Positions 51,805-64,000 of a stretch of DNA of 64,000 bases are shown here, one piece after another. Source of the stretch: a sulfur-oxidizing endosymbiont of Gigantopelta aegis (lineage in GTDB: Bacteria > Pseudomonadota > Gammaproteobacteria > GRL18); the NCBI RefSeq assembly GCF_016097415.1, contig NZ_JAEHGE010000001.1, forward strand, positions 3,414,857 to 3,478,856. Direction: 5' to 3'. The first letter of the stretch is position 1. Every line of letters begins with the position of its first letter. A model generated the notes under the pieces. That model made no database searches and was not told where the DNA came from. It saw only the letters and a list, made by a program, of their open reading frames with translations. A program made the position numbers and the translations under genes.

Positions 51805-52242
51805 TCAGCTAGATTGAATAGTCTCGTTATTATGGCGGTGATGAATTTGTCTTTTTTGTTCCGCTAAAATAAATTGTTCGATATACATTTGTGTCTCGGG
51901 AGTGATATCTATAAATTGACAGCAACAAGTAGTGCCTCGTATTTGTATCACTTGCACATTACAATGTAATTCAATTGTTATTGTTTCTGGCTTTTTAAAG
52001 GCAGGTAAACGGAAGGCTATGCTTAATTGGCTGGTATTTTTATAAGCCCCGGAAGTAACCATTTCATCACTTATGGGCGCAAAGGCCATACCCATAAAAC
52101 TGATATCAACAAGCTTAAACTCTTGTGCTTTATGATGCACAATAATATCGTTGAGGGGCTGTATGCGAATCCCCTGACGGCGCTCATCCTCATCTAATTC
52201 AATGATAATTTCATCATCATTGCTCTTCTTTTTCCAGAACAA
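51805..52242 (-). CDS. PilZ-domain protein
   Basis: I choose the TTG at 52242 because AGGAGG lies 7 bases before it; no better site precedes the longer frame. 145 residues: an acidic N-part, DERRQGIRIQPLNDIIVHHK (the RxxxR c-di-GMP motif of PilZ, in the form RRQGIR) and VDISFMGMAFAPIS. It overlaps motB by 26 bp. A PilZ protein coupled to motor stator genes could adjust motility in response to c-di-GMP (inference). There is no membrane segment. Confidence 0.8.
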   Translation of the reverse strand: MFWKKKSNDDEIIIELDEDERRQGIRIQPLNDIIVHHKAQEFKLVDISFMGMAFAPISDEMVTSGAYKNTSQLSIAFRLPAFKKPETITIELHCNVQVIQIRGTTCCCQFIDITPETQMYIEQFILAEQKRQIHHRHNNETIQSS

Positions 52243-53065
52243 ACTCCACCCTCCTGTTTTGTGCACGACCTTGTTCAGTCTCATTGCTTGAAAGCGGAAA
52301 TAAATCCGCATAGCCCGTTGCTGACATGCGTACGGGATCGATTCCCTCATCAATAAAAAAGCGTAATACGGTTGTTGCCCTAACGGCGGATAGTTCCCAA
52401 TTTGAGGGGAATCGAGACGTGGCTATGGGGGTATTATCGGTATAGCCTTTGATATCAATATTATAGTCAGAATATTTTTGAAATAAAGCCCGAATATCAT
52501 CAAATATCGGCACCGCACCATCAAATAGCTCGACATCACCGGAGGGGAATAATATGGTTCCCTTGATGCGTATGATGATGCGTTCACCCTCGGTATAAAC
52601 ATAAATATATTCACCCAGACGCTGCTCCTGAATCATGCTTTGGATATCATTGATCAAAGCTTCTTTGTCTGAGTCCTTGGGCTTAGCGTCCTCTTGCCCC
52701 TCATCCATGCCGGGTTTGGGGATAATAGGATCAATTTTGGATTCTGTCTGAGGTAAAACTTGTTGTATAACGATCTGGCTAGCCATGGGATTATTCTGGT
52801 TTAAAGCAATTTGAATTGAAGATAATACCGACTTAAACTTCTCCTTTTCTACCGAGGAAATAGAAAACAGCAAAATAAAAAAGACCAGCAAGAGTGTGAC
52901 CAAATCGGCAAATGTGACCATCCATGCTGGCGCACCTTCTTCTTCGGCAATTTCATCAATATTATTTTCTTTATCATCAGCGGCAAGCGTGTCACTAAAA
53001 TCACTGAATTGCTGTGGCATTTGCAAGTTTTCAGTGGCAGAATTTTCCGTCTCCTGAGTCACCAT
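52217..53065 (-). CDS. motB: Flagellar motor stator protein MotB/PomB
   Basis: 282 residues: a cytoplasmic N-part, the single membrane helix with the essential Asp (WMVTFADLVTLLLVFFILLF, residues about 49-68) and an OmpA/MotB peptidoglycan-binding domain (NIDIKGYTDNTPIATSRFPS, NWELSAVRATTVLRFF, NRRVEFVLEKEE). With MotA it forms the ion channel of the stator. H+ or Na+ coupling cannot be told. It starts 3 bp after motA ends, so they are one unit. Confidence 0.94.
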   Translation of the reverse strand: MVTQETENSATENLQMPQQFSDFSDTLAADDKENNIDEIAEEEGAPAWMVTFADLVTLLLVFFILLFSISSVEKEKFKSVLSSIQIALNQNNPMASQIVIQQVLPQTESKIDPIIPKPGMDEGQEDAKPKDSDKEALINDIQSMIQEQRLGEYIYVYTEGERIIIRIKGTILFPSGDVELFDGAVPIFDDIRALFQKYSDYNIDIKGYTDNTPIATSRFPSNWELSAVRATTVLRFFIDEGIDPVRMSATGYADLFPLSSNETEQGRAQNRRVEFVLEKEEQ

Positions 53066-53068
53066 AGA

Positions 53069-53230
53069 CTAACCCTTCTTCTTGCTGGATTTTTTAGAGC
53101 CACCCATTGAAGGTCGCTGATTTCGGGGTAGATAGGAGGATAATTTTTCATAGACAGACAGTTGATTATTGTCTTTGAGAATACAAATTGCCCCTTCAAA
53201 CATAATTTCCAGATTAATGACTTCAAACAT
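53069..53230 (-). pseudogene. motA: motA 3' part, separated by ISb copy E
   Basis: From the ISb junction the reverse strand reads MFEVINLEIMFEGAICILKD then NNQLSVYEKLSSYLPRNQRP and a Lys/Ser-rich tail, the C-terminal cytoplasmic end of MotA/PomA. Joined to 54743-55369 through the CAT duplication it restores a 261-residue protein without frame change (KLKSRTMFEVINLEI). Confidence 0.92.
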
Positions 53231-54742
53231 TAATGTGGCTATACTTAACCGGACACACAACTTAAAATAACTAAAAGATAAAAAGTGTGACCTAAAATGA
53301 ATGATCAAACAAAAAAACCATAAAAGCTATACATCAGAATTTAAAGAATCAGCTGTCAAATTAGCTAATGAGACGGATCAACCCGTTTCTCAGACTGCCA
53401 GGGAGCTAGGTGTTAATGTAAATACTCTACATACCTGGATCAGTAAATATTCCAAACCGGTGAAGACGGTAGCCAATAGAAGTGATGAACACATTTATGA
53501 TGAAGTAAAACGTCTGAAAAAAGAATTGGCAAAAGTGATTCAGGAGCGTGATTTATTAAAAAGGCCACAGCGTACTTTGCAAGGGAAACTTTGTGAAGTA
53601 CGCATGGATAACTGATCAGGCTAAAGATTACCCGGTAACGATTCTGTGCCGTTTTATGGATGTTTCCCGTAGTTGCTATTATGATTGGGTTAGCTCTCCT
53701 AAAACGGATAGAGAGAAAGAAAATGAAGCGCTTACTGAGCAGCTAAAAAACTGTTTGAAGACAGTCGCAAGACTTATGGAACCCGTCGTCTTAAAAGAAA
53801 ACTGGCTGAAAAAGGCGTTCATATAAGCCGCCGGAGAATTGGTCGATTAATGAAAAAAGCCGGTTTGTTTTGTAAAACGAAGAGACGCTTTAAAGCGACG
53901 ACTAATTCCAAGCATAATAAGCGTATATCTCCAAATTTACTGGAAAGAGAGTTTACTGTCTCTCAACCTGATCGCTACTATGTGGGTGATATTACCTATA
54001 TTGCCACCAAGGAAGGCTGGTTATATTTAGCGGTTGTCATTGACTTATTCTCTAGGCAAATTGTTGGCTGGTCGATGGATGAGCGAATGAAAGCCAAGCT
54101 AGTCAATGATGCTTTACTGATGGCCATATGGAAGCGTAAACCAATGGATGGATTGCTTTGGCATACTGACCGAGGTAGCCAATATGCCTCTGATAGTCAT
54201 AGAAAAATATTGTCGGATCATAACATAATTCAGTCTATGAGCCGCAAAGGAAATTGCTGGGACAATGCTGTATCAGAGAGCTTCTTTCATAGTTTGAAAA
54301 CTGAATTGACGCACCATTGTTCAAAACCAGAGTAGAAGCAAAGCAGGCAATATTTGAATATATTGAGGTGTTTTATAATCGGGAGCGACTTCATTCGGCT
54401 AATGATTATTTGTCACCAGTCGATTATGAAATACAGCAGGAAATAGCTTAAATCGATTGATTGAAGAGGGGTAAAAGGCGACATAAATGCCGCCCATTAC
54501 CGTTGACGGCCATCGGCTCCTCAGCCTGTGCCGTGAAGATATTGTAACAGGATCATTACCGTTGTGAAAATACCTTGGGTGAATGGAACGGCTCTATCGT
54601 TCCAGAGGGCAAAGCCCTTTCTCTTCATCTGTTTAAAGTTAACATGAGAAACTAAAATGATAGGAAATACAAAATGACAAAAATCACTTGAAACAGCCAA
54701 AAAAATATTTAGAAAACTGTCCGGAAAAGTGTTGACACATCA
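53231..54742 (+). mobile_element. ISb copy E (IS3 family) inside motA
   Basis: The element runs TAATGTGG...CACATCA, 1,512 bp, flanked by CAT on both sides (53228-53230 and 54743-54745). It is inserted in the opposite direction to motA. Confidence 0.95.
53297..54451 (+). pseudogene. ISb copy E transposase genes
   Basis: orfA has a 2-base loss after AAAAAAACC (CCATAAAAGC against CCGAATAAAAGC), which breaks it after seven codons. orfB has the same A-run breaks as copy D, plus a 3-base loss near 54320 that, with a further shift, ends the DDE part early at 54335 (HHCSKPE) instead of at 54451. Otherwise nearly identical to the other copies. Confidence 0.85.
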
Positions 54743-55369
54743 CATTGTACGTGATTTCAACTTGCCAGCAATGGGAATAAAAATAACTGTGGCCAATAAT
54801 GAACCATAAAATGTGGTCAGTAAGGCCACTGCCATTGACGGGCCAATGGTTGAGGGATCATCAAGCGTACTCAACATTTGAATAAGACCGATCAAGGTGC
54901 CTAACATGCCAAACGCAGGAGCATAAGTGGCCATTTTTTTAAACACATCCTGAACATTGAAATGTCGTGCTTTCATGGAATTAATCTCCGTGCGTAGGAC
55001 ATGACGAATCATTTGTTCATCGGAGGCATCAGCAATTAAATTGCAGGCACGTTTTAAAAAAGGTGAATTGGTTTTAACTTCCGACAGAGCCAGCAAACCT
55101 TTTCTACGACTGAGTTGTGTGAGTTGCAACATGGTTTGAATCAATTGCTCAGGCCGTTGTTTGTTGGTGCCAAAAACAAAGGCCGCACTTTTAAAGGCAG
55201 TAATAATATCTTTAAGAGGAAAGGTCAGTAAGGTGGCAGCAATCGTGCCACCAAAAACAATCATCATACCCGGCACATTGATGAAGGTTGAGGCATTGCC
55301 ACCGAGTAATATGGCAGAAACAATCAATGCAAACCCCGAAATAATACCAATTAGTGAAGCAAAATCCAT
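54743..55369 (-). pseudogene. motA: motA 5' part (flagellar stator MotA/PomA)
   Basis: 208 codons from ATG 55369: MDFASLIGIISGFALIVSAI, GGTIAATLLTFPLKDIITAF, NVQDVFKKMATYAPAFGMLG and TLIGLIQMLSTLDDPSTIGP with the TM3-TM4 helices, all MotA/PomA family. Both conserved TM3 and TM4 are kept, but the cytoplasmic tail is cut at 54743 by ISb. With only this gene for the stator, motility may be lost; another stator set elsewhere could compensate. Confidence 0.93.
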
Positions 55370-55576
55370 AGCAATGAGTGCCTAAAATGTGTGAGACCGA
55401 GGGCGTTGAGATGCTTTAATTGTAGACCAGATAAATGGATAGGCAAGGTGGGGATAAAGGGAGAGGTTCTTCGCTCATTTTTATTGACTTATCAGCAAGT
55501 AACACCTATAAATTAACAGTAGTACAAATTCCCCTGTGCCATGATAGATCTTTGTAAATTAAAGGAATTGTTGTTA

Positions 55577-56364
55577 ATGAGTTTGAAGTTTTGGAATTTT
55601 AACTATTGGAAGTTGAACTATCGTTGTTTAAGATTATCACTTTTTTTGACCAGTTATTTAATAATAAGTATGGCACATGCAGACAGTATACAAGCTGATC
55701 GACCTGGGTTCAGCACGGGTACCTATACCGTAGCGCCGGGCTATAGTCATATTGAAGTTGGCTTACAATATGATAAGGGCAATAATATTGGTGAGCGAGG
55801 CAGTTATACCGCACCCTTATATTAAACTATAGAATGGGGCTGACGGATGAAACCGAGCTTAATCTTCTATGGGATGGTTGGAATAAAAGCAATGGTGATT
55901 CTTCTTTGACCAATGGTGACTTAATGCTGGGCTTGAAACAACGCATCGTGACCAATGAAGACTATAATATATCCTGGTTGGGCTTTGTTACGTTGCCTAC
56001 AGGCACTCGAAGTAATGCTCAGCATTTTTCCCCGTTTATTGGTTTACTCTGGGATCGTACCATTACAGATAATATTTCTTTATTTGGCACTTTACAATTG
56101 GTCTCTTATGTTGAATCCAGAGACCGAAAAAACCAATTTCAGCCAGCGATAGGCTTGTCCTATCAGCATACTGATAAATTGGGTAGCTATGTAGAAATAT
56201 ACAGTGATATTGCTATGAATACGAGTGTTGCACCGGCGAGCGTGTTTGATGCAGGACTTACTTATTTGTTAACGGATTCAATACAGGTCGATTTTAATTT
56301 TGGCCTAGCAACGGATCGTCGCTCATCTGATTTTGCAGGCTTTGGTTTTGCCATACGTTTCTAG
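55577..56364 (+). pseudogene. Outer-membrane-type protein (phenol MetA-degradation transporter family), one frame break
   Basis: From ATG 55577 (AAGGA upstream) a signal peptide (LSLFLTSYLIISMAHADS) leads to IQADRPGFSTGTYTVAPGYS then HIEVGLQYDKGN, the opening of the Phenol_MetA_deg/MetA-like beta-barrel family. It stops at TAA 55823-55825 (TTATATTAAAC). In the other frame it resumes as LNYRMGLTDETELNLLWDGW and ends with a beta-barrel-type Phe (FGFAIRF). About 262 aa restored. It may be a porin-like carrier for hydrophobic or aromatic compounds. Family function is poorly known; the pairing with a cresol-type flavoprotein is only suggestive. Confidence 0.75.
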
Positions 56365-56450
56365 GTTAATGGCTGTGTCAAACTTCACCCATAATATTCA
56401 TCGTAAATTGTTTACTCAATAATCTATTAAGGTAAAAGTATCAATCAGTC

Positions 56451-59176
56451 ATGAGCTTAAGTAATAAAATAAATTATATACAACAAGCATGGAATGATTT
56501 GCGTATTGGTGCACGCCTGACAATCGGTGTGAGCACCATCTTATTTCTCACCGTTGTTGTTGGTCTAGTGGGTTGGGTCACGCTGGAATCTCAGTCTCGC
56601 TCACAAATTTTAGCCAATCAGGCGATTGATTTAGTCAGTGCATTACGTGCTGCACGTCAGGACGAAAAAAAACTATATGCTCAGTGGTGATGCCATCCAT
56701 ATTAAAGAAACGCTGGAAGGCATAGAAAATATCCGAAAAAATGCTGAAAGACTCAAGTCTGACTTAGAAAAAGAATTACATGCGATGCTGAATGATTTAT
56801 TAGCTGAGCGGGATAACTATCAAACTGAATTTGAAAATTTTGTTGAATTGAATTATAAAAAATCGCTCAGCTTAAAAGAGATGGTAAGTCAGGGACGAGA
56901 ACTGGAAAATACGGCGGTTATCTTACGTGATGATCAGAAAAAAGAATTGCAGCGTCTGGAAACTTTGGCCGTTACCTCATCCGATGAACGCCAGGAAAAA
57001 GAGAAAAAGCGGATGATGCTAATCGCATGATTAAGCTGATGGGTGAAGCACGACAACAAGAGAAAAATTTCCTGCTACGCAATAATCCGCGTTATGCCGA
57101 TGATACAGAAAACCTGGTCGATAAACTCATTATTCAGGCTAATTCCACTAAATCTCGCTTTGAAGATGTAGAAAATCAACGTTTGGCACAACAAATTATT
57201 GATGCTGCCGAGCAATATAAAAAGGATCTAAAAGCCGTTGTTGAGGGTGAAAAAGAAAATACTCAGGCATTAGCAACCATTATTATTTTGGGTCGTTTAG
57301 TGGAAGATCACTCGGTTAAACTCCGTGAAGATCAAAAACAAGAACTCTTAAAATTAGAACAGCAAACGACTGACACAGGGAAGCAGCGACTGGATAAACG
57401 TGAGAAGGCCGATCTGGCCAATCGTATCATTAAACTCATGGGAGAGGCGCGGCAACAGGAAAAAAACTTTTACTGCGTAAGGAACAATCTTATGCTGAAG
57501 TCACTTATGACTTGGTCAGAGAAATGATCAAACAGGCGGTTGATTTACGGCAGCGTTTTCAGGACAAACAAAATAAAAAATTAGTCAATCAAGTCATTGA
57601 AGCTGCAAAACAGTATTTGGATGAATTTAACAAGATTGTTAAGATAACCAACGCCAATGTCTTAGCTCAGGATTCAATGGCATCATTGGGGCGTAAAGTG
57701 GAAGATCGTTCATCTCAATTGAGGGATGATCAGAAACAAGAACTACAGCGCCTGGAGCGCATTTCAACACGTTCTTCTAAGCAACGGCTGGATAAACGCA
57801 TCAAGGCGGATACGGCGAATCGTATTATTAAGCTAATGGGCGAAGCCAGACAACAGGAAAAAAACTTTCTATTACGTAAGGAGCAAGCTTATGTTGAACA
57901 AACCCGCACCTTGGTGAATCAGGCAGTACGTCAGGCACAATTATTACGCGAACGATTTCAGGATAAGCAAAACCGTGAATTAGCGGATAAAATTATTAGC
58001 GCTGCACAAAGTTATTCACAAGAATTTGAAGATGTTGTGGTGGCTGAAAATGAGCAGGTGCAACAGCAAGCACGTATGGTGAATGCCGCTCGTGAGATTG
58101 AGCAATGGGCAGGTCAAATTCGTCATAAAACACAATTGTCTGCGGATAATGCTAAAGAAACCGCTGTCGTTATCATTCTATTGACCTTAGCTCTGGCGTT
58201 AATTCTAGGGGTTGCTGCGGCGGTTATATTGACCAATAGTATTTCCAAGCCTATTCAGGAACTTGTTGAGGTCATTAACCGACTGGCACGCGAAGATAAT
58301 GTGGATGTACCCTTGGTGATGAATCAGGACGAAATTGGTAAAATTGCCCGCGCAATTTCAAACTTTAAAGAAGTTATTCTACGGCGTAAAGAAAAAACCG
58401 AGGCACAGCTCATTCAAGCTGAGAAAATGGCCGCATTGGGCGATTTGGTTGCCGGTGTGGCTCATGAAATTAATACGCCAATAGGTATTGCCGTGACGGG
58501 TAGTACACACTTGCAAGATCAAATCACCTTATTAGAGCAAAGCTTTGATCAGGGCAAACTGACAAAATCAGAATTTAAAGACTTTGTCGATAATGCGATG
58601 CCAACAGCAGCAACGATACAAAATAATTTGGAGCGAGCCTCTGCCTTAATCAAAAGTTTCAAGCAAGTGGCCGTTGATCAATCCAGTCAGGAATTAAGAA
58701 TCATAAAAATAGCCGATTATATTAATAATGTGTTAGTCAGTTTACACCCTAAGATCAAACAAACTAAACATCAGATTTTAGTTGAAGGCGATCAACAATT
58801 GATGATTGAAACAGTGCCGGGTGCACTGTCACAAGTGATCACTAATTTGGTTATGAACTCCTTAACACATGGTTATGAGACTGACTCAGAGTCTGGCATT
58901 ATAAAAATTAATATCGCATCTGAAAATAAAGATGTCATTATAACGTATAGTGATGATGGGAAAGGCATGAGTGATGAAACGGCAAAACGTATTTATGAAC
59001 CCTTTTTTACGACTAAGCGTGGTACCGGTGGTAGTGGTCTGGGACTGAGTATTATTTTCAATTTGGTCACACAAACATTAGGTGGTGTTATTCATTGCTC
59101 CACAAAATATGAGCAGGGTGTAAGCTTTGAGATACGCTTTCCAATCAAAAAAGAAATGGATAACATAAATGATTGA
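56451..59176 (+). pseudogene. Sensor histidine kinase with four tandem helical sensor repeats; three frame breaks
   Basis: Pieces in different frames join into a 908-residue kinase. TM1 is LTIGVSTILFLTVVVGLVGW. A very long periplasmic part holds four copies of a 132-133-residue unit, each with GEARQQEKNFLLR or a variant (anchors at about 56664, 57060, 57459 and 57857) and DDQKQELQRLE. Then TM2 (VVIILLTLALALILGVAAAV), HAMP, HisKA with the phospho-His in GDLVAGVAHEINTPIGIAVT, and HATPase (NLVMNSLTHGY, YSDDGKGMSDETA, GTGGSGLGLSII). Breaks: one A too many near 56668, one G missing near 57013, one T missing near 57470. The EKNF units resemble HBM-type helical sensors of chemoreceptors. The receiver-kinase at 59169 overlaps its end by 8 bp. 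Confidence 0.85.
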
Positions 59177-61607
59177 AGATGATGATCTGTTATTTAATGA
59201 CGATGATGATGAGACAAATGTGAATGATAAGACATCATTAAAGAGTGATTTGCAAGCCTGGAAATTACTCATTGTTGATGATGATCCTGAAGTACATCAA
59301 ATTACCAAATTATCTTTAGTTAATTTCAAATTTGAAAATAGAGGTTTGGAATTTTTGCAGGCATATAGTGCTGAAGAAGCTTTAAAAATTATTCAGTCAA
59401 CGCCTGACATTGCACTCACATTACTGGATGTGGTAATGGAAACAGAACATGCTGGCCTAGAGTTAGTCGAAAAATCCGTACACAACTGAACAATAATCGC
59501 ATTCGAATTATTCTCAGAACCGGGCAACCGGGGTGGCGCCGGAAAGAGATATCATTGTTCATTATGATATTAATGATTATGCAGAAAAAGCCGAATTATC
59601 AGCCCAAAAATTATTTACCTTAGTTGTCGCTAGCTTACGTGCTTATCGAGATATCGTAAAATTAGAAGATAGTCGGGCTGAGCTAGTGGAAGCTAATTTA
59701 CGTTTATCAAAAGAGCGTGAACGCATACAAGTAACCCTGGATTCAATTGGTGATGGGGTAATGACGACTGATGCACAAGGTTTGATCACCCATCTTAATC
59801 CAGTGGCAGAAAAATTGACCGGCTGGAGTCTACAAGATGCTTGCGGACTGGATGTTAAAAACGTTTTTCCTATTGTTGATGCCTCCAGTGGCGAGACGAT
59901 TTCAAACCCCATTGACAAAGTCATTGCCACGGGCGAAACCGTCTATTTGAGTAATCATACCACACTGATTTCCAGAACCGGGAAGCAATTTCAGATTGCA
60001 GATTCGGCAGCGCCTATTAGAGGTGCAGACCAGCAGATTGTGGGTATGGTGCTGACCTTTAATGATGTGACAGAGCAATACAGTCTGCGCGAAGCGGCTA
60101 AACAGAGCTAACATCATCTGCAAATGATTATGGATCATACTCCCGCTATTATTTATGCCAAAGATATTCAAGGTCACTATCTTTTTTGTAAATCAGAAGT
60201 TCAAGTCGTTTTTGAACTCACGACAGAGGAAGTCATTGGTAATACGGATTTTGATATTTTCCCTGCTGAAATTGCCACAGCATTCCGCAAAAACGACCAG
60301 CTTGTTTGGGAGTCAGGAAAGGCTTGGAAGCTGAAGAAAGCGCACCTTATAAGGATGAAATCCGACATTATTTATCGGTTAAATTTCCTATTTTAGATGC
60401 TGCTGGCATGGCCTATGCGATGTGTGGTATTTCAACGGATATCAGTGAGCACAAGAAACAGGAAGAACAATTGCGCCGAAGCCAAAAATGGAGGCCATCG
60501 GTCAACTCACCGGTGGTATTGCACATGATTTTAATAATCAACTGGGTGTGGTGCTCGGTTACTTAGATTTTATCAATGACTCCGTTGAAGATGATAAAAA
60601 CTGCAAAAATGGATTGGTACAGCCACCAAAGCTGCATTACGCTGCACTGATCTAACGCGCCAGTTATTGTCTTTTCACGCACCCAAGCGAATGAAAAAAC
60701 CGTAGTCGATATTAACTCTAAATTAGAAGAGTTAAAAATATGTTGGCCCGTTCTATCACGCCTGCAATTGTAATCCAATATTTTTTAGCGGATGACCTCT
60801 GGCTAACAGAAACGGATGGCGGAGAGTTTCAAGACGCTATTTTAAACTTGGTTATTAACGCCCGAGATGCGATGCCTAATGGTGGTAAGTTATTAATTGA
60901 AAGCAGTAATAAAACAATTGATAGTGATTGTACGCACATTAATTCGACAGCGACTGCGGGTGATTATGTTCAAATTATGCTCAGTGATACCGGAATGGGC
61001 ATGGATAAAGCCACTCAGGAGCGTATTTTTGAACCATTTTATACCACCAAGCCTAAAGGGAAGGTACGGGCTTAGGGATGGCGATGGTGTATGGTTTTGT
61101 GAAACGCTATGGTGGTTTTTTTCAAATCTATTCGGAAGTCGATGTGGGTACAACAATGCGCTTGTATTTACCGCGTACGCTTTCGGAGCAGGAAAATGCT
61201 GTTTTACCTGAAAAGAAAGGCGTTATTCCATCCGGTTCAGAAACGGTTTTAATTGTTGATGATGAAGTAGATTTATTAAATTTAGCCGACACTTATCTCT
61301 CTGCTTTAGGTTACCAAACTTTTTGGCTGAAAATGCCCAACAGGCGATGGCAATCATGGCAAAACAGCCGAATATTGATGTGTTATTCAGTGATGTGGTG
61401 ATGCCGGGTGGTGTTAATGGTTACGAGTTAGCCGAGCAAGCCATAGAAAAATATCCACATATTAAAGTGCTGCTGACTTCGGGCTTCACTTCGAACACCA
61501 TCGCTCAAAATGGGCAGCAACGCTTTACAAGACAATTATTAACGAAACCCTACCGAAAAATAGAATTGGCTCGGGCGTTACGCAAAGTGATAGCAAAATC
61601 GGTTTAA
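59169..61607 (+). pseudogene. Hybrid REC-DUF3369-PAS-PAS-histidine kinase-REC protein, many frame breaks
   Basis: Domains in order: receiver (LLIVDDDPEVHQITKLSLVN, LLDVVMETEHAGLELV); DUF3369-like (NNRIRIILRTGQPG, YDINDYAEKAELSAQKLFTL); PAS (VTLDSIGDGVMTTDAQGLIT); PAS (MIMDHTPAIIYAKDIQGHYL); HisKA ([20 protein letters not shown]); HATPase (NLVINARDAMPNGGKLLIES, LSDTGMGMDKATQERIF); C-terminal receiver (TVLIVDDEVDLLNLADTYLS, LFSDVVMPGGVNGYEL). Nine one-base losses (near 59474, 59527, 60316, 60490, 60604, 60672, 60733, 61064 and 61322) restore 815 codons. A tenth fault is different: an in-frame TAA at 60109-60111 where CAA (QHHLQMIMDH) is expected. It overlaps the upstream kinase gene, so the two act together in signalling. 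Confidence 0.82.
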
Positions 61608-61728
61608 TGAACACTGGATACCTTGTAAGATGTGTTTGAGTGACAAAGCGCAGCAATATTTTTTTATTTTCTAGAATTATCCCTCAATCAAGTAGAATAC
61701 AGCTCTCATTCTTATTAGTGGAACTCTT

Positions 61729-62036
61729 ATGGATAAATTTAGCCTCATTATTGTTATTGGCGTTATCGCCCTGACCGCCTATTATTTTATGTCAAATAAA
61801 AATAACGGCAAAACTGCTGTAGAAAATACCCGCCTGGGGGCAGAATATTTGGCTACAAACAAAGTCAAAGAAGGCGTTGTAGAAACAGCATCAGGCTTGC
61901 AATATCAGGTGCTGACTCAAGGCAGTGGGACACAGCATCCTAGCGCGAAAGCAACGGTTAAGGTGCATTATCATGGCACTCTAATGGACGGTAAAGTTTT
62001 TGATAGCTCGGTGGATCGTGGTGAGCCTATTAGTTT
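61729..62036 (+). pseudogene. FKBP-type peptidyl-prolyl isomerase, 5' part (split by IS1595)
   Basis: MDKFSLIIVIGVIALTAYYF is an N-terminal membrane or signal helix. VETASGLQYQVLTQGSGTQH and KATVKVHYHGTLMDGKVFDS then SVDRGEPISF are FKBP strands with the proline-isomerase pocket residues Tyr/Phe/Asp. The reading is cut at the ATTAGTTT target site (62029-62036); it then runs 58 bp into the IS before stopping at 62094. The rest is at 63078-63259. Confidence 0.93.
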
Positions 62037-63077
62037 CTTGATTACCCACAAAGCTCCGCCATATTTCGATAATTATACTATAATTATACTATAATTAAAG
62101 TATAGATTATGTGTGGAGTAGAATGATGTCAAAAAATAAAATTCAGTTTCAAGAAGGTTATAGTTTATTTGAGCTTTTTAATGATTATGGCACTGACAAA
62201 CAGTGCCGACAAGCCTTATTTAAATGGAAATTTCCTGATGGATTTGTTTGCCCAGAGTGTGGCAATAAGACTTATTGCACTCTAGAACATCGCCATCTTT
62301 ATCAGTGCCACCATTGTCATCATCAGACATCAGCAACCTGTGGGACAATATTTGATAGTACCAAACTGCCTTTATCTAAGTGGTTTTAGCGATTCATCTT
62401 ATGACTCAATTGAAGACAGCGGTTTCAGCATTAGAATTAAAGAGACAGCTTAAGGTAAGCTACAATACAGCCTGGAGTATGAAACAAAAGATCATGCAGG
62501 TTATGAAAGAACGTGATGACAGTAAACCTTTATCAGGCATCATTCAAATTGATGATGCCTACTGGGGTGGTGAGCACAGAGGCGGCTCCAGAGGTCGTGG
62601 TTCAGAAAATAAAACACCGTTCGTTGCAGCCGTTTCTACTAATGAAGATGGACACCCGATTGCAATGAATTTAAATGTGCTTAAAGGGTTTAAATCCAGT
62701 GAAATAAAACGATGGGCACAAACTCATTTAACACCTGGAAGTACTGTTTACTCAGATGGGTTAAATTGTTTTCCTGCGGTTAAAGAAGCTGACTGTAAGC
62801 ATGTTCCAATCGTCACGGGTGGTGGTGCGGCAAGTGTTGATAAAATTGAGTTTATCTGGGTTAACACTATGATAGGTAATATTAAAAACTCTATGAAGGG
62901 AAGCTATCATTCCATTAACTCAAAACATTTACCTCGGTATCTTGCTGAATTTTGTTATCGGTTTAATAGACGCTTTAACTTAAAAGACATGATGCCAAGG
63001 TTTTTATGCGTGGCGATGAAAACGCCACCTATGAATGGAAAGCTCCTAAAAATGGCGGAGCTTTATGGGTAATCAAG
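62037..63077 (+). mobile_element. IS1595-family insertion sequence, copy 2
   Basis: The element runs CTTGATTACCCACAAAGC to GCTTTATGGGTAATCAAG, 1,041 bp, flanked by 8-bp ATTAGTTT on both sides (62029-62036 and 63078-63085). It is nearly identical to copy 1 but with two instead of five full 11-bp repeats and one T fewer near 63004. Confidence 0.95.
62123..63077 (+). pseudogene. IS1595-family transposase, copy 2
   Basis: Same zinc-ribbon and ISXO2 DDE segments as copy 1, with the same TGG-TTT-TAG break, plus a second break at GGTTTTTATGCG (five T against six) that replaces the tail. In the correct frame the end WKAPKNGGALWVIK has no stop and reads on into the FKBP 3' part in frame. Confidence 0.88.
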
Positions 63078-63259
63078 ATTAGTTTTGCATTAAATCAGGT
63101 TATTCCCGGTTGGACTGAAGGACTGCAATTAATGGTTGTCGGTGAAAAGACCCGTTTTTTATTCCGGCTAAACTCGCCTATGGCAATCGAGCTATGGGCG
63201 CCATTGCCCCTGGCTCGACATTGATCTTTGATGTGGAACTCTTAGGTGTTACAGAATAG
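63078..63259 (+). pseudogene. FKBP-type peptidyl-prolyl isomerase, 3' part
   Basis: Continues the FKBP fold after the IS: ALNQVIPGWTEGLQLMVVGE then, with one T added to the run of six at about 63160, KTRFFIPAKLAYGNRAMGAI and APGSTLIFDVELLGV. This is a textbook FKBP C-terminus. With one target copy and the T, the gene is 161 codons (160 aa), acting as a periplasmic or membrane-linked foldase. Confidence 0.92.
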
Positions 63260-63277
63260 TATCATGAGTATAAGGCG

Positions 63278-63909
63278 ATGCTAAAAATACTCTGTTTTGG
63301 TGATAGCATTACCCTTGGTGAATTAGACCTTGAGTGGGGTGGCTGGGCTGATCGTTTAAAGAGGCACTTTTTGCCCAATTTTCAGCACAACAAACACAAG
63401 ACATTGGCCTATATAATCTGGGCATTGCCGGAGAAAATACCGATGGCTTAGTTTATCGATTTGAAACAGAGCTCAAAGCACGTCATATCAATGGTCAACA
63501 ATTGATTATTTTATTCGCCTATGGTGCAAATGATATTGTCATTCATAAAGATAAAAATATTGTTCCGGAAGCTTATTTTATCAGGAATTTAAAACACTGT
63601 ATTGAAATAGCTCAAGGTGTTAATGCCGAGATAGTATTATTAGGTGTTTTGCCAATCTCTGACCGCATTGAAGGTCAAGTAAATCAGCATGGCAAGTTGC
63701 GTTTTGATAGTGACATACAAAAATATAATGTCATTTTAAACACGCTTGCTCAAAAAATGCATTGCCAATTTATTGATTTATACTCGATTTTTTCGGAAGC
63801 TGGCAATAAAGAAAAGTACCTTTCCAGCGATGGATTGCATCCCAATGCTAAGGGACATGAATTGCTCTACAAAAATATAAAGCAACAACTCGAAGCATTA
63901 GTTCTTTAA
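63278..63909 (+). pseudogene. SGNH/GDSL hydrolase, one frame break
   Basis: ATG 63278 reads MLKILCFGDSITLGELDLEW (block I GDS) then WADRLK. One more A at TTTAAAGAGG (near 63360) continues as EALFAQFSAQQTQDIGLYNL, GIAGENTDGLVYRFE, block III AYGANDIVIHKD and block V SSDGLHPNAKGHELLY with the catalytic Asp-x-x-His. Restored length is 210 aa. It hydrolyses esters or thioesters, such as lysophospholipase or arylesterase. No signal peptide. It lies 18 bp after the FKBP gene. Confidence 0.88.
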
Positions 63910-63925
63910 CAGGTAAAATTTGTAG

Positions 63926-63942
63926 GGTGGGCACTGCCCACC
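63926..63942. repeat. REP-like palindrome
   Basis: GGTGGGCACTGCCCACC is a perfect 8-bp stem with a one-base centre, and GTAGGG (63922-63927) recurs inverted as CCCTAC near 63977. Such GTAGGGTGGGC palindromes are common dispersed REP units in gammaproteobacteria. Confidence 0.65.
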
Positions 63943-64000
63943 AATTGCGATCAATGAATACTGCTGATGGACAGCTCCCTACGTTCTATTTTTTTATTTA

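Follow-up and report, generated by a model that had tools for sequence, protein, structure and literature searches.

The described systems closest to the protein reported here are sensors built of helices. The HBM domain (PF16591), which has been described as bimodular, is represented by McpS (2YFA/2YFB), a chemoreceptor with two modules. A helical sensor exceeding an HBM in size is the ligand-sensing domain of McpZ (8F7N), which we take to be a Sinorhizobium meliloti chemoreceptor with three stacked modules, and the periplasmic helical sensors TorS (3I9W, 3I9Y, 3O1H-J) and PilJ (7ZJR, 8WDF) are presumably both two-bundle sensors, as against the four units of the protein described below. As to what such domains sense, passages of PMC5126104 propose that HBM domains bind organic acids and place the ligand site at the dimer interface, with organic acids as ligands in McpS, McpQ and McpK, and passages of PMC6321045 name TorT as the binding protein with which TorS works and PstS as the one through which the HBM chemoreceptor CtpL acts. 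Among the literature matches listed, no title or abstract opening named a four-module HBM, a statement that concerns those matches and not print as a whole.

Here we describe a gene of a sulfur-oxidizing endosymbiont of Gigantopelta aegis, located in the window (the whole stretch of DNA that was analysed, 64,000 nucleotides). In a modelled pair of units of an orthologue, the sensor shares the fold of the McpS HBM, but McpS is a chemoreceptor with two modules, while the present protein is a histidine kinase with four; its four units likewise set it apart from the three-module type of McpZ. The kinase is an HBM-superfamily helical sensor enlarged to four modules, about twice the usual size, and as such a new variant.

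A sensor histidine kinase with four tandem helical units

The gene lies where the first-pass annotation had placed a sensor kinase (Table 1), although no single ORF spans that interval: the frame is broken three times in the window, leaving four reading pieces, namely three ORFs of at least 80 amino acids and, at the N terminus, a shorter one. The same genome has the kinase on contig C7 as a single ORF of 908 amino acids (L009:1704-4430), from which the unit coordinates were transferred to the window through the C7/window alignment. Its sequence predicts an inner-membrane sensor histidine kinase. Behind the second transmembrane helix, HAMP and HATPase_c both score above their Pfam cut-offs (HATPase_c with E 4.5e-21 and 75.8 bits against 26.4); HisKA stays below its cut-off of 26.9, with 15.0 bits here and 17.3 bits in the orthologue L017 (see below), and the H-box AHEINTP is present by eye.

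Table 1. Positions in the window of the kinase gene, the parts of its product and the adjoining partner gene
Feature	Position	Strand	Remarks
Four-module sensor histidine kinase gene	56451..59176	+	three single-base indels in window; intact on C7
TM1	56523..56579	+	residues 25-43, Kyte-Doolittle scan
Unit 1	56604..57002	+	residues 52-184; helices A, B, C diverge from other units
Unit 2	57003..57401	+	residues 185-317
Unit 3	57402..57799	+	residues 318-450
Unit 4	57800..58162	+	residues 451-571; helix D divergent, continues into TM2
TM2	58172..58228	+	residues 575-593, Kyte-Doolittle scan
HAMP	58229..58360	+	residues 594-637; PF00672, 26.9 bits vs cut-off 25
Kinase core	58436..59149	+	H-box AHEINTP (His 672, by eye); HATPase_c 791-900, PF02518
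REC-PAS gene	59169..60111	+	frameshifted in window; 314 aa on C7, L009:4423-5367
PAS-HisKA-HATPase-REC	60124..61607	+	frameshifted in window; 496 aa on C7, L009:5380-6870

As had been claimed from the sequence, all four helical units lie within the predicted transmembrane pair of the sensor kinase. In the predicted fold, each runs from helices A and B into a long C-D helix. The motif by which they were recognized reads AARQDEKNYML once and then EARQQEKNFLL three times, starting at residues 67, 199, 332 and 465 of the 908-residue copy, that is, 132, 133 and 133 residues apart (window positions 56649, 57045, 57444 and 57842, transferred by alignment); the four copies at this spacing therefore stand, while the positions originally given for them were about 15 bases too far on. 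The QELxRLE block said to follow each motif was found after units 1-3 (KELQRLE, QELLKLE and QELQRLE), but not in unit 4, which passes into TM2. In a self-comparison of the 908-residue protein, which the first-pass annotation had suggested, the best segment scored 711 at an offset of 133 and 374 at 266, against a best score of 45 at any offset more than 1 away from multiples of 133, so that the repeat is far beyond chance. Near-identity between copies holds for the junction block, but not for the units at large: units 2-4 share 42-53% with one another, and unit 1 only 22-32% with units 2-4.

Intactness of the gene and age of the duplications

Compared with C7, the window copy of the kinase gene has three single-base indels, near 56.66, 57.00 and 57.47 kb, all in homopolymer runs, and neighbouring genes in the window are broken by indels in like manner; between 55.7 and 61.5 kb we counted 15 differences from C7, 14 of which are single-base indels and one a two-base indel. 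C7 is a 22.6-kb contig that matches the window stretch at 99.68% over 9276 bases (3 mismatches, 25 gap openings), and its remainder continues in C1, the contig of the window, at 99.66% over 13353 bases (7 mismatches, 34 gap openings). Part of C7 (L009/L010) duplicates window positions 54746-64000, with many indels relative to C1. On this comparison of sequences we regard the kinase gene as intact and attribute the frame breaks to consensus errors in C1. C7 itself may be a redundant contig, or it may stem from a genuine duplication that polishing missed, and it is a better source than the window for reading genes in the duplicated part.

Two full-length orthologues also carry four units, which answers the comparison of repeat number in related genomes that had been proposed: one of 895 amino acids, 67% identical, in G023, a member of another genus of the same taxonomic family, and one of 910 amino acids, 72% identical, in L017 (WFOC01000079.1), a gammaproteobacterial MAG. 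The unit spacing is equal in the three proteins but for one residue. Since the sensor occurs in 2 of 24 genomes of the taxonomic family and in 3 of 57 relatives (the source genome counted in both, and one of the three being a single weak match), its distribution is patchy. An artefact, either in the number of units or in the gene itself, or a decaying pseudogene, would account for the three frame breaks of the window copy, but is very improbable: C7 carries an intact copy, the indels between C7 and the window run on through the adjoining genes, and the four units recur in both orthologues. Because these stem from two other assemblies, the unit number is no assembly artefact, and the concern that the repeat had been collapsed or expanded in assembly falls away. 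The sequences thus speak for a real gene encoding a conserved, unusually large sensor.

A recent tandem duplication of one unit, as proposed in the first-pass annotation on account of the near-identical junction blocks, is hardly credible in view of the orthologues. When the 12 units of the three proteins are placed in a tree, they mostly cluster by position, with clades for unit 1 (100/100), unit 4 (100/100) and, less strongly supported, unit 2 (93/91), while for the three unit-3 rows no clade was resolved. Identity is 62-77% between orthologous units and 20-56% between units at different positions, and even in the near-identical junction block 10/10, 10/11 and 8/11 of the fourfold sites differ between unit pairs. 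From the unit identities by position and the diverged fourfold sites, it follows that the duplications are old and that selection holds the junction blocks.

Kinship with HBM sensors and relatives with two or three units

Membership in the HBM family was scored with PF16591 on two of the three orthologues (all but G023), which gave whole-protein scores of 30.6 bits for the kinase itself and 38.5 bits for L017, at a cut-off of 29.8. The former score, which adds up three stretches with the best at residues 50-153, is marginal; in a search of the genomes of the class, which gave matches in 25 of 369 genomes (9 above the cut-off), the best single stretch of the kinase reached 19.8 bits, below the cut-off. 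Its membership being marginal by sequence, it therefore rests also on the fold. L017 has one HBM match, which covers positions 9-239 of the 254 in the profile and spans residues 181-423, in other words units 2 and 3. This match over two units, together with the superposition of modelled units 3 and 4 on McpS (see below), indicates that an HBM domain equals two units, and one unit would, by sequence and model, be half an HBM domain. The kinship of the units with HBM sensors that had been suspected is thus borne out, but it is the pair and not the single unit that corresponds to the domain. An ordinary HBM sensor has about 250 residues, with two units between its transmembrane helices, whereas here four units take up 531-533 residues.

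When genomes were searched with a profile of the unit, 19 of 369 in the class, 9 of 24 in the order and 75 of 398 in the phylum gave matches, the three sets overlapping and all including the source genome. We examined 83 unit-bearing ORFs from loci fetched by the earlier searches, which do not amount to a census. Four units, with a transmembrane spacing of 531-533, were found in 3 of the 83, and these are exactly the three orthologues. Three units occur in 16 ORFs, which differ from the four-unit kinase in having a spacing of 352-419 (16/16), and two units in 48 ORFs, with a spacing of 232-299 in 47 of the 48; the exception, L031, shows two unit matches at a spacing of 400 and probably hides a further unit. 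The 16 ORFs outside this tally comprise 3 with one unit and 13 without a called transmembrane spacing, among which several are clipped at locus ends and some are fragments, such as L038 of the kinase gene itself; L099, in which three units were seen, also belongs to these 13. Wide-spaced three-unit sensors include L049:3250-6585 (G007, same genus, 1112 amino acids) and L094:1016-4663 (G711, 1216 amino acids). These two and L050 (G253, 984 amino acids) match the same unit profile and have one unit more than an HBM.

Among units of relatives, gathered with a profile containing the signature, R..EK is found in 78, 85 and 83% (156 units) and the Tyr in 98% (163 units). Being so widespread, the motif that first drew attention is a signature of the family. 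It is shared with the relatives found here, a set to which McpS itself does not belong. Against the PDB, phmmer gave no match for the sensor at E 1, the unit profile had its best match in 9snn ('ancestral PcpI', E 1.1e-5), and the profile had no sequence match to McpZ 8F7N at E 10.

Predicted fold

Structure prediction, which the first-pass annotation had recommended, gave helical units and an HBM fold for units 3 and 4, but did not settle the overall topology. Two AlphaFold models of L017 were obtained: model 1 (pLDDT 73, pTM 0.42) from a 6-row alignment with window pieces, some of which were set on the wrong unit, and model 2 (pLDDT 80, pTM 0.45) of the ectodomain alone from a 4-row alignment. 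In both, units 3 and 4 superpose on McpS (2yfb/2yfa) with Z 22.1-22.3 and 2.3 Å over 234-235 residues, and in these models they make up a pair of four-helix modules, one on top of the other, that have two long helices in common. The matches after McpS stood at Z 17.6 and 18.6 or lower, and Foldseek of model 1 gave McpS with E 1.1e-5. TorS and PilJ superpose on units 3 and 4 with Z 16.5-17.6, and McpZ on the HBM part with Z 17.2, over 235 and 238 of its 364 residues, 126-129 being left over. Unit 2 of the models superposes on single-bundle sensors. In both models C1-D1-A2 and D2-A3 are each one helix, while D3/A4 and C2/D2 are broken. This yields 11 periplasmic helices, an odd number where two transmembrane helices in one membrane need an even one, and the global arrangement in the models is therefore unreliable.

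Arrangement of the four modules

If each C/D and D/A joint is either continuous or reversed, and D4 ends at the membrane, the neat solutions would be a single stack or two towers, to which mixed forms can be added. Parity excludes closed bundles lined up in a simple string. The rod of about 550 residues proposed in the first-pass annotation is one arrangement among several. We prefer a nested four-storey stack, with a probability of roughly 0.45. The lower two storeys would be built from units 1 and 4 and the upper two from units 2 and 3, helix D of one unit completing the bundle of its partner unit by analogy with the HBM. A1, B1 and C1 with D4 would form the membrane-proximal module, D1-A2 and D3-A4 would be continuous helices, and the turn D2/A3 would be the tip. 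The C3-D3 helix has 65 residues in the ectodomain model; at a helix rise of 1.5 Å per residue it spans two modules in about 97 Å, so that a four-storey stack would be a rod of about 195 Å.

The pattern of divergence and the conservation of the junctions speak for this rod, whereas the AlphaFold models do not. ABC1 is 18-23% identical to the rest, against 51-61% among ABC2-4, and D4 is 19-27% identical to D1-3, against 31-48% among those; in a stack, these two divergent parts would fall in one shared bottom module, which supports it. The junctions D1/A2 (81%) and D3/A4 (84%) are conserved and gap-free, while D2/A3 (45%) has a deletion in one protein. The heptad phase in the three proteins is 0, -6 and 4 degrees at D1/A2 (within 6 degrees in 3/3), -19, -17 and -56 degrees at D3/A4, and -8, -1 and 72 degrees at D2/A3 (in phase in 2/3); as the units are related, these values are not independent. 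Counts in relatives were made with phase windows set for the wide-spaced form and with three unit rows without flanks dropped: the tips of wide-spaced two-unit relatives (including the outlier L031) lie within 45 degrees in 12/36, near random, and those of narrow-spaced ones in 2/15; C/D joints are in phase in 68/103 cases in two-unit and 22/51 in three-unit relatives; and the D/A joints of three-unit relatives lie within 45 degrees in 1/30 narrow-spaced and 2/4 wide-spaced cases. As a stack would need continuous D/A helices in the three-unit relatives, and these are not in phase by this measure, a result hard to interpret with windows set for the wide form, the argument from phase is weakened, and this control led us to lower the odds of the stack from 0.5 to the value given above. 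The modelled break at D3/A4 and the HBM formed by units 3 and 4 also speak against it.

That same closure of units 3 and 4 of L017 into a complete McpS-like HBM, with the break at D3/A4, is what would be expected if two ordinary HBM towers (units 1+2 and units 3+4) of about 100 Å stood side by side, connected through a turn at the surface of the membrane, and the chain thus held an internal HBM pair. With twelve alternating helices the parity is right, and the sequences at D1/A2 and D3/A4 are alike (TSSDERQEK, TRSSKQRLDK), as two equivalent tips should. These would-be tips, however, are the conserved junctions, while tip length varies in wide-spaced two-unit relatives (spacing 129-148 in 35/36), and duplication of a whole HBM predicts that unit 1 pairs with 3 and unit 2 with 4, whereas the highest identities are those of units 2-3 (53%) and 3-4 (50%), with unit 1 standing apart; we consider the two towers unlikely, although they deserve to be kept in mind. 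Mixed topologies appear more doubtful still, such as one in which units 1-3 are stacked in three storeys in the manner of McpZ and unit 4 forms a bundle of its own. They would leave TM1 and TM2 beneath different bundles and require a C4/D4 break that is absent from the AlphaFold models, which on the other hand make unit 2 a closed single bundle with D1-A2 and D2-A3 continuous; in addition, the glycine in the C2/D2 loop (G266) is invariant across the three orthologues, and the residues of McpZ 8f7n that are spare when it is aligned to the HBM part lie within its aligned range.

Taking the four-storey stack of about 195 Å as the preferred arrangement, we tentatively suggest that helical-bundle sensors grow by mid-chain insertion of whole modules, TM1 and TM2 always remaining in the same bottom module; the phase control made us slightly more reserved about this reading, to which we give somewhat less than even odds. 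If true, the modular growth of these sensors would extend over one, two, three and now four storeys, and at this length the rod could reach through the peptidoglycan into the vicinity of the outer membrane, and a single kinase could thereby sense a signal on the far side of the periplasm, or several ligand sites along the rod. The HBM is described as bimodular, but the series of two, three and four units suggests that evolution works with the module rather than with the pair as its unit. The stepped transmembrane spacing further suggests that the height of a sensor can be changed in steps, and with the series one could test directly how signals from different heights above the membrane are passed on to a kinase.

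Output, partner gene and neighbourhood

The likely partner of the kinase is the adjoining REC-PAS-HK-REC gene. It is split into two ORFs in the source genome, even on C7, and is one gene in the orthologous loci (683 amino acids in L017, 685 in G023), its domains being identified by Pfam in L017 and by eye only in G023. Kinase and partner gene overlap by 8 bases in the source genome and by 4 bases in L017, and are separated by a 15-base gap in G023. A signal would bind to a single module or several, or to the tip via a partner protein; binding in the periplasm would then move D4-TM2, next HAMP and finally the kinase, whose phosphate may go to the receiver at the N terminus of the REC-PAS-HK-REC protein encoded downstream.

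We also considered a PhnD-type binding protein as a partner, after the pattern of kinases coupled to a binding protein such as TorT-TorS and XylFII-LytS, and compared L017 with the source genome for it, the contig of G023 ending too early to be included. A PF12974 gene lies two genes downstream of the kinase in L017, directly before another kinase, and a PhnD-type binding protein with a kinase of another sensor type occurs both there (L017:10796-13768) and in the source genome (L115:2266-6457). The L115 binding protein is 47% identical to the PF12974 protein of L017, and the core of the L115 kinase 43% identical to the four-unit kinase. Since the gene in L017 directly precedes a kinase of its own (CACHE-like, a label given by eye), and the same pair stands elsewhere in the source genome without the four-unit kinase, this pairing is weakened.

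An Rfam scan of the window gave no match. Directly upstream of the kinase, window positions 55541-56364 (L009:796-1617) encode a PF13557 protein (E 1.2e-14), presumably outer-membrane-like, of which no counterpart was noticed by eye upstream of the kinase in L017. Further upstream, at 52217-55369, MotB-like and MotA-like genes were recognized by eye with an IS-type transposase between them (53301-54335), and the MotA-like frame seems shortened in the window. Beyond the partner gene, at 61729-63072 (L009:6994-8527), an FKBP-like gene is, by eye, apparently split by a transposase gene, its C-terminal part lying beyond the insert.
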